29,017 nucleotides of DNA from a virus, in the IMG/VR virus record IMGVR_UViG_3300032249_000483, positions 1 to 29,017 of that record, one strand, 5' to 3'. Each line of letters opens with the position of its first letter. Position 1 is the first letter of the stretch. Shown here in pieces: positions 12,505-15,509 of this stretch. A program made the translations under genes and the position numbers. The notes beneath the pieces are model-generated. The model saw nothing but the letters and a program-made list of their open reading frames with translations, was not told the DNA's origin and did no database searches.

Positions 12505-12833
12505 GAGATGCGCTCCAAGTAATTAGCTAGATCTTCCGCGCCCTTGAGTATTGCCTCGATCCCCTGCGTGGCCGTGTAATCGCTTATCAGATCCCAGCCC
12601 GTGTTACCATATACCAAGTGAACAAAGCCAGCGCGTTTATCATCAAGAAAAAATATCAGCGCGTCCTCATCAGTTGAATAACCAGCGTCAATGATGTCAA
12701 AATAATCGCTGGATTTCTTGAGCGGGTATTCTTCGCCATCGTAAACACTAATTGTATAACCCATAATTAGCGCGTCCTGCACAATCCGCGCGTATATGGC
12801 CTTTTCTATTGCTATCCTTCTGTGAATATTCAT
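12501..12833 (-). CDS. Hypothetical protein, 110 aa
   Basis: Alternating strands and helices with DGEEYPLKKSSDYFDIIDAG, EDALIFFLDDKRAGFVHLVYGN and a C-terminal helix. No family recognised. Start and stop both overlap neighbours by four bases. Confidence 0.6.
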   Translation of the reverse strand: MNIHRRIAIEKAIYARIVQDALIMGYTISVYDGEEYPLKKSSDYFDIIDAGYSTDEDALIFFLDDKRAGFVHLVYGNTGWDLISDYTATQGIEAILKGAEDLANYLERIS

Positions 12834-13000
12834 TCTGTAACCTCCGAAACAGTATCAATTTGCCAGCCTTCAGCATCGTAAGTTGTCCAATGCTTGTAAT
12901 CCTTCTCTAAAACAATTTCCATCGCCTCTTCTTCGGTGTTGGCCTTGATATCAATTTCATAGTGCATGATCTCGCTGGCCGTAAATCTAAATGTTGCCAT
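12830..13000 (-). CDS. 56-aa hypothetical protein downstream of ribozyme 1
   Basis: ATG at 13000 follows AAGGGGTTTAAC. The product has the strand-helix-strand plan YEIDIKANTEEEAMEIVLEK. It is the first gene translated from the 3' product of hammerhead ribozyme 1, whose cut site lies 25 nt upstream of the start codon. Confidence 0.6.
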   Translation of the reverse strand: MATFRFTASEIMHYEIDIKANTEEEAMEIVLEKDYKHWTTYDAEGWQIDTVSEVTE

Positions 13001-13019
13001 GTTAAACCCCTTAATTGTT

Positions 13020-13071
13020 GACTAAGACGCGCTCCCGCGCGTTTCGGCTCTTGAAGCCTCATCAGTTAGCC
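13020..13071 (-). ncRNA. Hammerhead ribozyme 1 (type I)
   Basis: Read on the minus strand: stem I GGCUAA pairs with UUAGUC (one G-U); core CUGAUGA; stem II GGCU-UCAAG-AGCC; core GAAA; stem III CGCGC-GGGA-GCGCG plus the A15.1-U16.1 pair; cleavage triplet GUC. All invariant hammerhead positions are met and stem I is open, so it is type I. Cleavage is expected between 13026 and 13025. Stem I begins on the last base of the upstream UAG stop, and the next SD is 10 nt after stem I. Confidence 0.93.
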
Positions 13072-13235
13072 TATTCTTCGGGATGCGGTGAGTAAAATAC
13101 CTCTTTCATCACGCCCAGCAAAATAACGGCCTGCTCAGTTTTCAAGCCGTTATGTTCCGCGAACCTCTCAGGCGTTAAGTAGTTGTTGCGCCAATCCATG
13201 TAATAGTCTTTTAAAATCTCTCTAAGCTCTCGCAT
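13071..13235 (-). CDS. 54-aa hypothetical protein
   Basis: GAGGGG precedes the ATG, which overlaps the previous stop by one base (TAATG). The product is helical (MRELREILKDYYMDWRNNY, TEQAVILLGVMKEVFY). Its UAG stop donates its G to stem I of hammerhead 1. Confidence 0.55.
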   Translation of the reverse strand: MRELREILKDYYMDWRNNYLTPERFAEHNGLKTEQAVILLGVMKEVFYSPHPEE

Positions 13236-13432
13236 TATTTCCCCTCTTTCAATAGGTGCTGGATCTGCTTGCCTACTTCAACCCATGCAAACCCGTCCAC
13301 GATCCCGCGCTCAGGGTAGTCATCGCCCTTTGTTTTTGCTACCTCATCGGCCAGCTTGTGGATCGCTGACATAATGAATAAATGCGCCAGCGGGTGGCAG
13401 TCTAAAATTTTGTTTAGTGATTTTGGTTTCAT
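13235..13432 (-). CDS. Small hypothetical protein, 65 aa
   Basis: Contains HPLAHLFIMSAIHKLADEVAKTKG followed by WVEVGKQIQHLLKEGK, mainly helical. Start overlaps the upstream stop by four bases. No family assigned. Confidence 0.55.
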   Translation of the reverse strand: MKPKSLNKILDCHPLAHLFIMSAIHKLADEVAKTKGDDYPERGIVDGFAWVEVGKQIQHLLKEGK

Positions 13433-13686
13433 GCTGTGCCCTTTGTGCTTAAAAATTTATTCCATTCATCTTTTGCCAGCTGGTCGATCTTCCGCGCAAT
13501 ATCTTTACGAATGTAAAAGACGCCGTCATGCGCCCAGCGTCCACAATAGTTATAAAAAAAGATCCAGTCCACGCGCCAGCCATCGGTTAAAGCTATGTCC
13601 CCGTCCTTAGTCCGTTCTAGCGTATACTTGCCAGCACTCATGATCACTTGCCCTGCTAGATCCGCGTTAAGTTGTGATTGTTTCAT
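13429..13686 (-). CDS. Hypothetical protein, 85 aa
   Basis: ATG follows AAGGGGCTTGTAAC, one base after the upstream stop. Tyr/Trp-rich middle (VDWIFFYNYCGRWAHDGVFYIRKDIARKI) suggests a compact fold. No known family. Confidence 0.55.
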   Translation of the reverse strand: MKQSQLNADLAGQVIMSAGKYTLERTKDGDIALTDGWRVDWIFFYNYCGRWAHDGVFYIRKDIARKIDQLAKDEWNKFLSTKGTA

Positions 13687-13687
13687 G

Positions 13688-13837
13688 TTACAAGCCCCTT
13701 AAATATTGTCTAAATTCCGCAAGCGCGGAGCGTTTGGAATAATAATAGTAAACCTGTGTAACCCTGTGGCCGTAGACGATCGCGGAAAGCTCCAGCGATC
13801 CGTTATGCTCATGCTTAAAAATAGTAATATCGTGCAT
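13688..13837 (-). CDS. 49-aa hypothetical protein downstream of ribozyme 2
   Basis: ATG at 13837 follows AAAGGGGCAACAA. The chain contains four consecutive Tyr (VYYYYSKRSALAEFRQYL). Hammerhead 2 ends 19 nt before the start, so its cleaved mRNA would begin with this gene. Confidence 0.55.
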   Translation of the reverse strand: MHDITIFKHEHNGSLELSAIVYGHRVTQVYYYYSKRSALAEFRQYLRGL

Positions 13838-13856
13838 TTGTTGCCCCTTTGTTGTT

Positions 13857-13906
13857 GACTAAGACCCCTCGCGGGGTTTCGGCTCTTAAAGCCTCATCAG
13901 TTAGCC
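13857..13906 (-). ncRNA. Hammerhead ribozyme 2 (type I)
   Basis: Stem I GGCUAA/UUAGUC; core CUGAUGA; stem II GGCU-UUAAG-AGCC; GAAA; stem III CCCC-GCGA-GGGG plus A-U; triplet GUC. Stem III differs fully in sequence from ribozyme 1 yet pairs perfectly and ends in a GNRA loop. Cleavage is expected between 13863 and 13862. Again stem I starts on the last base of the upstream UAG stop. Confidence 0.93.
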
Positions 13907-14139
13907 TAATAAGTAAAATCAATAAAAACGATCGTTTCGCCTTTTAGGAAAATTTCCCTATTCCAATCCGTGTAATCGTTGCATGAATACATGCGAGAGC
14001 CTCGCTCATAATCGCCCCGCGTGTAGACCCGTTTCGCTCCAGCCTTGCGAACGAAAAAATCGCCCTTTTTAAGATCCTTTAATAGTGCTGGGTGGTAGTC
14101 GTTGCCGTCCACGTATTGAACCTCGCCTAGTCCGCTCAT
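13906..14139 (-). CDS. Hypothetical protein, 77 aa
   Basis: ATG at 14139 follows GGGAG; the frame extends upstream but lacks a better site. Beta-rich and basic (YHPALLKDLKKGDFFVRKAG, YTRGDYERGSRMYSC). Its stop overlaps hammerhead 2. Confidence 0.55.
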   Translation of the reverse strand: MSGLGEVQYVDGNDYHPALLKDLKKGDFFVRKAGAKRVYTRGDYERGSRMYSCNDYTDWNREIFLKGETIVFIDFTY

Positions 14140-14141
14140 TT

Positions 14142-14417
14142 TTAAAACTCCCTTATCTGTTTTGCTACTCGTTCGAGAAAATCGGCCTGAGCGCGTTTGA
14201 AGGCGTCCCATTCGTCCCCGCTCTTGTTCAAGTCATACATGAAATAGTTGCCGTGCGCGGTGCCTTGCTGGTTGTTGGTTGGAAAAACCCAAGTGATGAA
14301 CTCTTGTTTCCATGTGGCCAATACCACGCCCTCGATCTCGTTCATATACACGGCCAGCACCTGAGCACCATTAGCGCAAAAGTCCCCCACGCGCAGACTA
14401 AAAGATTTTGTTTCCAT
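14142..14417 (-). CDS. Hypothetical protein, 91 aa, downstream of ribozyme 3
   Basis: AAGGGGCAATAA precedes the ATG. Beta-rich N-terminus (FSLRVGDFCANGAQVLAVYMNEIEG split by turns) and helical C-terminus (DEWDAFKRAQADFLERVAKQI). It would be the first gene on the 3' product of hammerhead 3. Confidence 0.6.
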   Translation of the reverse strand: METKSFSLRVGDFCANGAQVLAVYMNEIEGVVLATWKQEFITWVFPTNNQQGTAHGNYFMYDLNKSGDEWDAFKRAQADFLERVAKQIREF

Positions 14418-14439
14418 TTATTGCCCCTTAAGTTGTTTT

Positions 14440-14496
14440 GACATTGACGCCCCCAGCTGGGAGCGTTTCGGCTCATAAAGCCATCATCAGAATGCC
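14440..14496 (-). ncRNA. Hammerhead ribozyme 3 (type I, with an extra U)
   Basis: Stem I GGCAUU pairs with AAUGUC, a compensated change from ribozymes 1 and 2. Core CUGAUGA, then one unpaired U, stem II GGCU-UUAUG-AGCC, GAAA, stem III CGCUCCC-AGCU-GGGGGCG plus A-U, triplet GUC. Cleavage is expected between 14446 and 14445. It directly follows the ardA stop codon. The extra U beside A9 may slow it. Confidence 0.88.
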
Positions 14497-14979
14497 TTAA
14501 TAGTTTTGGAAGTAGTAGCCATTCTCGCTGGTATAGTCAAACATGATATTACGGGCGGTTCTTTCCCAATCGATCGCGATATAGTGCGGTAGATCCTTCG
14601 GGATATCCCCACAGCTTTCTAACAATTCCTGCGCGAATTCTTCATCTTGCGCAAATCGCCCAACAAAACGATCCTGCGCATCCGATAGATCGCCATCGAA
14701 GCCAGCATCTAAAAAGGCCTCCAATAGCTCCCGATCGTCCTGATCCAGCGCGAGGTATTCAAAAAGATCATCATCTAGCCCGCTTTCAGAATAATAGCGT
14801 TTTGGGAAGCCTTCGAAGTCTTGGATCATTAGCTCGGGGTCTTCTTCGTCCTTATGAAGCTCAGCGCAGACGGCGTTAAATTGCTCCGCGTCCGTGAAGC
14901 CTTCTAGTTCGATCCACGCCCCAGCGATTGAACCCTCGTTATATTTTGCATAAGTTCCAACATAAGCTCTTGCAGTCAT
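14497..14979 (-). CDS. ardA: ArdA-family antirestriction protein
   Basis: The 160-aa, highly acidic product starts TARAYVGTYAKYNEGSIAGAW and carries the ArdA signature AVCAELHKDEEDPELMIQDFEG followed by ESGL. ArdA proteins mimic bent B-DNA and occupy type I restriction enzymes (and some modification subunits), protecting incoming phage or plasmid DNA. The length fits the family. It lies near the front of the minus operon, as expected for an early counter-defence gene, and hammerhead 3 follows its stop. Confidence 0.88.
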   Translation of the reverse strand: MTARAYVGTYAKYNEGSIAGAWIELEGFTDAEQFNAVCAELHKDEEDPELMIQDFEGFPKRYYSESGLDDDLFEYLALDQDDRELLEAFLDAGFDGDLSDAQDRFVGRFAQDEEFAQELLESCGDIPKDLPHYIAIDWERTARNIMFDYTSENGYYFQNY

Positions 14980-15468: not shown

Positions 15469-15488
15469 CTGATAAGAGAGATTATCAG
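15469..15488 (-). other. Hairpin at the start of the minus transcript
   Basis: CTGATAA and TTATCAG form seven pairs around six bases, overlapping the -10 and the likely start of transcription. It may be an operator or a 5' stabilising stem. Confidence 0.4.
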
Positions 15489-15509
15489 CGCGGATCACTT
15501 GATTGTCAA
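15481..15509 (-). promoter_or_regulatory. Strong sigma-70 promoter of the minus operon
   Basis: On the minus strand TTGACA (15509-15504) and GATAAT (15486-15481) are separated by exactly 17 nt. This gives a full -35 match and five of six at -10. It faces the whole 15430-9857 operon. Confidence 0.85.

Follow-up and report, generated by a model that had tools for sequence, protein, structure and literature searches.

What do three short, similar elements between the genes of one phage operon do to the RNA in which they lie? The window in this study is a stretch of 29,017 nucleotides, positions 1 to 29,017 of the IMG/VR virus record IMGVR_UViG_3300032249_000483. It carries rightward replication genes, a leftward block of approximately 20 small genes (15445-9857), and rightward terminase, portal and head genes. 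An earlier note on this DNA had claimed three type I hammerhead ribozymes on the minus strand between genes of the leftward block, at 14496-14440, 13906-13857 and 13071-13020, with cuts leaving 5' ends at 14445, 13862 and 13025. Direct reading bore out the number, type, strand and position of the elements, their intergenic placement and the predicted cuts (14446/14445, 13863/13862 and 13026/13025). Each copy consists, in this order, of stem I, CUGAUGA, stem II, GAAA, stem III and GUC; stem I is open-ended, stems II and III are closed by loops as in type I, and all helices were paired when the copies were folded.

Hammerhead 1 (14440..14496, minus strand) has stem I at 14496-14491/14445-14440, CUGAUGA at 14490-14484, stem II and its loop at 14482-14470, GAA at 14469-14467, stem III at 14466-14447 and C17 at 14446. 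In hammerhead 2 (13857..13906, minus strand), these parts lie at 13906-13901/13862-13857, 13900-13894, 13893-13881, 13880-13878, 13877-13864 and 13863, respectively, and in hammerhead 3 (13020..13071, minus strand) at 13071-13066/13025-13020, 13065-13059, 13058-13046, 13045-13043, 13042-13027 and 13026, respectively. The core consensus of the class is C3 U4 G5 A6 N7 G8 A9 / G12 A13 A14 A15.1 / U16.1 H17 (PMC3088659). Direct reading showed that these bases are complete in all three copies and that CUGAUGA, GAAA and GUC are present in each, as the earlier note had it; copies 2 and 3 are perfect, but copy 1 is not canonical, having one additional U (14483, U9a) between A9 and stem II. Stem III was said to differ wholly between the copies and always to pair, which holds, whereas the change claimed for stem I is confined to copy 1 (GGCAUU/AAUGUC), copies 2 and 3 sharing GGCUAA/UUAGUC.

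Hammerheads can be slowed by core insertions (PMC3088659), and U9a in copy 1 counts against cleavage. This objection is tempered by the recurrence of the insertion, which was found in 6 of the 25 copies in relatives selected by their terminase. The same additional U recurs in otherwise perfect hammerheads of L008, L009, L081, L090, L212, L351 (an orthologous operon) and others. When the window copies were folded with their flanks, stems II and III formed and were strong; in the minimum-energy structure, stem I of copies 1 and 2 had to compete with upstream coding sequence, which counts against efficient cleavage. The folding energy of the three copies was unremarkable (z of only -1.6 to -2.1) and was rejected as evidence.

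A pattern scan, by which 0.18 matches were expected in the window, found the three elements, one of them counted twice. A pairing-aware descriptor found exactly these three, and none in 200 shuffled windows. A covariance model trained on 34 sequences from other loci, with the window left out, gave E values of 5.9e-16, 6.9e-16 and 1.7e-9 for copies 3, 2 and 1, respectively, and 0.86 for a fourth match; neither descriptor nor model found a further hammerhead in the window. The earlier note had proposed the Rfam hammerhead models as a check and had regarded scores below their thresholds as grounds for giving up the claim. With Rfam 15, no element of the window reached a gathering score (RF00163, RF00008, RF03152 and others), and the best sub-threshold matches were RF03152 at 20.0 bits (gathering 56.3) and RF00008 at 18.6 bits (gathering 48.5), so that the elements are filed under no Rfam family. 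At its thresholds Rfam 15 had no match in 14 related loci either. The scores thus do lie below the thresholds of Rfam, whereas in the dedicated model they are at E=1.7e-9 or better. An Rfam threshold is a criterion of a database and not the definition of a ribozyme class. Because 14 loci of the same family were also unmatched while covariation and the dedicated model were decisive, we take the miss as a probable gap in the Rfam coverage of a compact subtype. A test by Rfam would therefore have wrongly rejected the finding, and annotation that relies on Rfam overlooks this subtype.

How far does the family extend? A narrow pattern was found in 14 viral contigs, and a broader one, which fixes only the core and a few stem and loop II bases, in at least 120 stretches. 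Complete hammerheads stood at 140 of the 151 distinct pattern places in viral contigs and at 30 of 114 in bacterial genome contigs; the remaining bacterial matches appear to be due to chance and were rejected. The compact ribozyme is present in more than 100 viral contigs, and the whole collection comprised 265 distinct copies at 187 loci in 3.35 Mb; the reversed sequences yielded none. Across the family, both sides had changed in 12 of 15 pairs and 99.8% of the cells were paired, with a covariation score of 0.80 compared with 0.14 in shuffles and 0.04-0.08 for slid partners. The earlier claim that the structure is under selection was upheld by these figures, and the three helices round the core, which mark the hammerhead class, are conserved by covariation. 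When stem I was left unconstrained, pairs 1-6 were formed at 98-99% of the places; for pair 7 the figure was 7%, which is below chance. Stem I is therefore exactly 6 bp. The mismatch that closes it off is mostly A2.7/A1.7.

The seventh nucleotide after the cut (1.7) and the final nucleotide of loop II covaried (Fisher p=1.7e-30), with a mutual information z of 39.8 when the next best was about 10. The 1.7:loop II counts, related sequences included, were A:U 165, A:G 46, A:A 3, A:C 1, U:A 26 and U:G 1; taken once per locus and combination, they were A:U 118, A:G 41, U:A 17, U:G 1 and A:A 3. Loop II conservation was partly imposed by the search pattern and was rechecked on copies outside the pattern and in the terminase-selected loci. 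All three window copies have A1.7 with G, the A:G form. This covariation is the signature of a known tertiary contact, and the stem I-stem II contact of natural hammerheads is in this way indicated by family-wide covariation rather than by structure. In engineered minimal hammerheads, the contact is reported, as cited in PMC9217987, as a trans-Hoogsteen pair between a U 7 nt after the cut and the A of a GUGA loop (O'Rourke et al. 2015). Some of the terminase relatives (L289, L294, L300, L301 and L073) have U1.7/U2.7 in place of A/A, and these copies carry loops II of GUAA, AUAA or AUAAA type, not the U-N-A-N-N pentaloop.

These results bear on the possibility that the elements cleave negligibly or not at all and are structured spacers, whose hairpins would protect the upstream gene on its 3' side or keep neighbouring genes apart in translation. 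Stems II and III, which fold even with flanks, are what such a spacer would have. A hairpin alone, however, needs neither the invariant CUGANGA/GAAA/UH core nor an open stem I of 6 bp spanning the cleavage site, and covariation between 1.7 and loop II is not expected of an inert hairpin. We consider an exclusively structural role highly improbable. Other gaps of the leftward operon, at 15046-14980, 12428-12409 and 11431-11405 (minus strand), hold hairpins without a hammerhead core, such as CUAAGCAUC/GGUGCUUAG before ardA and two sites that resemble terminators.

The elements fit closely between the genes, all of which are on the minus strand here. The ardA-like antirestriction gene (14497..14979; Pfam PF07275, E=1e-23; phrog_2059) has a stop codon that abuts stem I of hammerhead 1. 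After the predicted cut 1 there is a leader of 28 nt (14418..14445) with AAGGGG at 14429-14424, followed from the ATG at 14417 by a gene of 91 aa without a family (14142..14417) and a gene of 77 aa (13906..14139), and the G of the TAG stop of the latter is the first stem I base of hammerhead 2. Cut 2 would leave a leader of 25 nt (13838..13862; AAGGGG at 13849-13844, ATG at 13837), after which come genes of 49 aa (13688..13837), 85 aa (13429..13686), 65 aa (13235..13432) and 54 aa (13071..13235), the last of which again shares the G of its TAG stop with the first stem I base of hammerhead 3. The leader after cut 3 is likewise 25 nt (13001..13025; AAGGGG at 13012-13007, ATG at 13000) and leads to a gene of 56 aa (12830..13000), whose product weakly resembles DpnD-PcfM (16.2 bits, cut-off 25) and has a 93% identical relative in L387, on the same contig as L351. 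The genes of 91, 77 and 54 aa are conserved in L351. A candidate promoter of the leftward operon lies at 15481..15509 on the minus strand (TTGACA, 17 nt, GATAAT; 11 of 12 matches in a consensus scan), and promoter-like sites were no more numerous in the window than in shuffles by the same scan. We infer that the leftward block is transcribed as one unit.

The same fit was seen in the family. An ORF of 40 or more codons has its end between -30 and +22 relative to stem I in 88% of the viral copies, compared with 19% of random positions; in 37% it ends exactly at -3 to 0, compared with 1.7%. In 21% of the viral copies, the stop of the upstream ORF is the UGA of the ribozyme's own CUGA (0.3% at random); since CUGA always contains a stop codon, we estimate that the fair enrichment at that position is only several-fold. 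The distance from the cleavage site to the ATG in viral copies had a median of 26 nt (quartiles 22.5-32.5). The window elements lie as clustered phage hammerheads do, three within 1.5 kb and on the strand of the genes, in a contig with phage hallmark genes. Because each fits exactly into the gap from a stop codon to the ribosome-binding site that follows, they probably chop a long mRNA into separate messages.

Hammerheads cut after C17 and leave a 2',3'-cyclic phosphate on the upstream product and a 5'-OH on the downstream product, and a 5'-OH should resist decay that requires a 5'-monophosphate. The cleavage chemistry of the window elements would be that of their class. The site of action would be the untranslated gaps between the small accessory genes, ardA among them, of the leftward operon, where each ribozyme would fold behind the passing RNA polymerase and then cut 3' of C17. 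The last gene of the upstream product would be followed, just past its stop codon, by stems II and III and the terminal cyclic phosphate. On the downstream product, the 5'-hydroxyl would lie 25-28 nt ahead of the start codon that follows, just beyond the span covered by an initiating ribosome, and a complete ribosome-binding site would be kept. The operon mRNA would then become four modules, made up of three genes (the last of them ardA), two genes, four genes and the remainder, respectively, which could differ in translation and decay. We also speculate that a ribosome terminating at the nearby upstream stop would cover the core, so that translation might delay folding. The benefit may be that the modules are expressed separately and are protected from end-dependent decay.

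The closest comparison is with L351, whose orthologous operon has 75-89% DNA identity with that of the window. In L351, ribozymes 2 and 3 occupy the corresponding junctions and have an unchanged stem I, and their stems II and III are altered yet paired. The junction from ardA to the next gene reads TAA-GGGGCAACAAATG in L351, and in the window TAA-[ribozyme 1 + leader, ending CTTAA]-GGGGCAATAAATG; this empty site was read from the raw sequences, because the MAFFT alignment misplaces the next gene. Ribozyme 1 is thus cleanly present in the window and absent from L351, which is compatible with gain or loss. Its absence shows that ribozyme 1 is dispensable and counts against the cleavage reading; at this junction, where stop codon and ribosome-binding site overlap tightly in L351, the ribozyme would instead give two separate messages. 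A small gene stands directly after ribozyme 3 in L351 only, and the second ribozyme of L351 has the stem III of the third in the window. The comparison indicates that the ribozymes keep their form while the surrounding sequences and cassettes turn over.

It could be argued from the same comparison that the elements are kept mainly as DNA homology between gene cassettes, serving as recombination sites for accessory-gene turnover, and that RNA cutting is incidental. The clean presence or absence of a ribozyme between stop codon and ribosome-binding site, the gain or loss of a gene directly after ribozyme 3 and the stem III shared across positions would all suit this explanation. Homology alone, however, predicts no compensated changes in all three stems and does not explain the fixed distance to the start codon or the orientation with the genes, and the conserved sequence amounts to only about 25 scattered bases. 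We regard such a role as most unlikely.

The orientation was established in 80 loci chosen by terminase similarity alone (67-84% identity). Hammerheads were found in 16 of them, and in all 25 distinct copies stem I is 6 bp and the strand is opposite to the terminase, as in the window; the leaders had a median of 26 nt (quartiles 25-28). The frequency of 20% is a lower bound, since many of these loci are short and end before the accessory operon. There was no hammerhead in 50 kb of each of the named terminase relatives DSL-LC04, 023Pt_psg01 and HTVC027P, and a megablast with 23 kb gave no match to near-identical named phages. Flavobacterium elemo phages (blastn E=0.09) were rejected as carriers by the descriptor.

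If the elements cleave, the products could still be rejoined, the main product being religated RNA, either a circle carrying several genes or a joined product of the outer fragments that lacks the middle genes. Because ribozymes 2 and 3 have identical stem I, the fragment from 13862 to 13026 would carry UUAGUC at its 5' end and the GGCUAA hammerhead at its 3' end. In the 35 loci with at least two ribozymes (e.g., L019, L033 and L180), stem I was also more alike within than between genomes (0.78 vs 0.44; exact identity 0.31 vs 0.03), and more so than stem II, which was close to background (0.62 vs 0.57). Stem III, however, was more alike within genomes as well (0.62 vs 0.31), which recent duplication or exchange explains, and the stems I differ in many multi-copy operons (L007, L012 and L015). 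Spliced or circular products were sought by Perreault et al. and none were found (PMC3088659). The likeness could be due to duplication, to exchange or to selection for a shared stem I, and we think it very unlikely that religation yields the main product.

We therefore return to cutting into separate messages. It is supported by the covariation, the 6-bp stem I, the contact between 1.7 and loop II, the flush stops, the leader distance, the strand and the conservation in L351 and in operons unrelated to that of the window, and also by similar tandem hammerheads that cleave in vitro and in E. coli (PMC3088659). Hammerhead identity and intergenic position in one leftward operon, together with mRNA cutting and 5'-hydroxyl ends as their likely consequence, make up the best-supported reading. 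We consider it quite probable that three cis-acting type I hammerheads cut the polycistronic mRNA co-transcriptionally into modules, and this is the best reading of the locus. The relatives show that the arrangement is widespread and kept by selection.

Is there a particular link with ardA? ArdA was found in 3 of 151 hammerhead loci and hammerheads in 1 of 36 ArdA-selected loci, so that the association is recurring but not general, and a specific link was rejected. The cultured SAR11 phage Pelagibacter phage Jormungand EXVC012P has a hammerhead (E=6.4e-11; L247:4995-5060, about 38217-38282 of MT375528.1) near ardA, marR and integrase genes, which the annotated hypothetical CDS gp49 overlaps.

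Other loci hold larger numbers. For example, a 51-kb phage contig (G004/L271, G004:C1:3500-10000; IMGVR_UViG_3300006924_000032) packs nine hammerheads into 4.3 kb, each of which precedes the start codon of a small gene by 20-34 nt, and a contig binned as Aliivibrio (L180) has eight. Within one family of marine Flavobacteriales, a match was found in 20 of 52 genomes, and in 19 of these the ribozyme lies between a gene for a TonB-dependent receptor and one for a short Cys/His-rich lipoprotein, a constant pair (L142, L147, L163, L164, L171, L175, L195, L201, L214, L217, L218, L238 and L251-L269). It stands 22-27 nt before the lipoprotein start codon, with a stem I that is mostly AATACT/AGTATT. 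No joint treatment of hammerheads, Flavobacteria and TonB was found in the open-access literature; this chromosomal version may be more novel than the phage elements, and its operon copies are perhaps the most promising route to function.

As a tentative idea, to which we give somewhat less than even chances, the compact hammerhead could be a general intercistronic punctuation element of prokaryotes, approximately 50 nt long, set after a stop codon and ahead of the ribosome-binding site that follows, in phages and chromosomes. If this is true, it sets the 5' end of the downstream mRNA approximately 26 nt before the start codon, gives neighbouring genes separate mRNAs without protein, and serves in as many as nine copies in one phage operon and also in chromosomes, such as in the conserved TonB-receptor operon of marine Flavobacteriales. 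The strict fit between stop and ribosome-binding site, the pair of window and L351, and the chromosomal copies make the mRNA-processing hypothesis directly testable.

Clustered hammerheads that flank prophage genes have been reported, and the processing of long phage transcripts was proposed for them (Perreault et al. 2011, PMC3088659). Three clusters were cleaved in vitro, and the triple of A. tumefaciens next to ardA was also cleaved in E. coli (PMC3088659). Three hammerheads in series in one phage operon, which the earlier note had found striking, are therefore not new, and the window triple joins an arrangement whose cleavage was demonstrated in 2011. De la Pena et al. 2017 (PMC6155905) called the role of prokaryotic hammerheads open, and no later treatment was found in the open-access literature. 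The clusters of A. tumefaciens, A. caulinodans and C. scindens (PMC3088659) resemble the window in being serial, in lying among small phage-operon genes with ardA as a neighbour, in their core consensus and in the proposed cutting of long phage transcripts. They were assayed for cleavage, which is predicted for the window elements; ardA lies downstream in their case and upstream of the ribozyme in ours; and the window family, which may differ from the clusters in this respect, is all compact type I with a 6-bp stem I and mostly a 5-nt loop II. HHphage of the haloviruses HF1 and HF2 (PMC3088659) is similarly a phage hammerhead a few nt upstream of a start codon, but it is a single copy of an archaeal virus, with insertions near C3, before a helicase gene. 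RF03152 (RAGATH-1-hammerhead) and RF00008 (Hammerhead_3) share the core and part of the stem arrangement with the window elements and differ in their peripheral elements. Closest in build, as they are described through PMC9217987, are the engineered minimal hammerheads of O'Rourke, Estell and Scott (2015), which have the same 6-bp stem I and the same contact between position 1.7 and the final base of loop II; those were engineered, whereas here the A:U, A:G and U:A alternatives are natural and covary.
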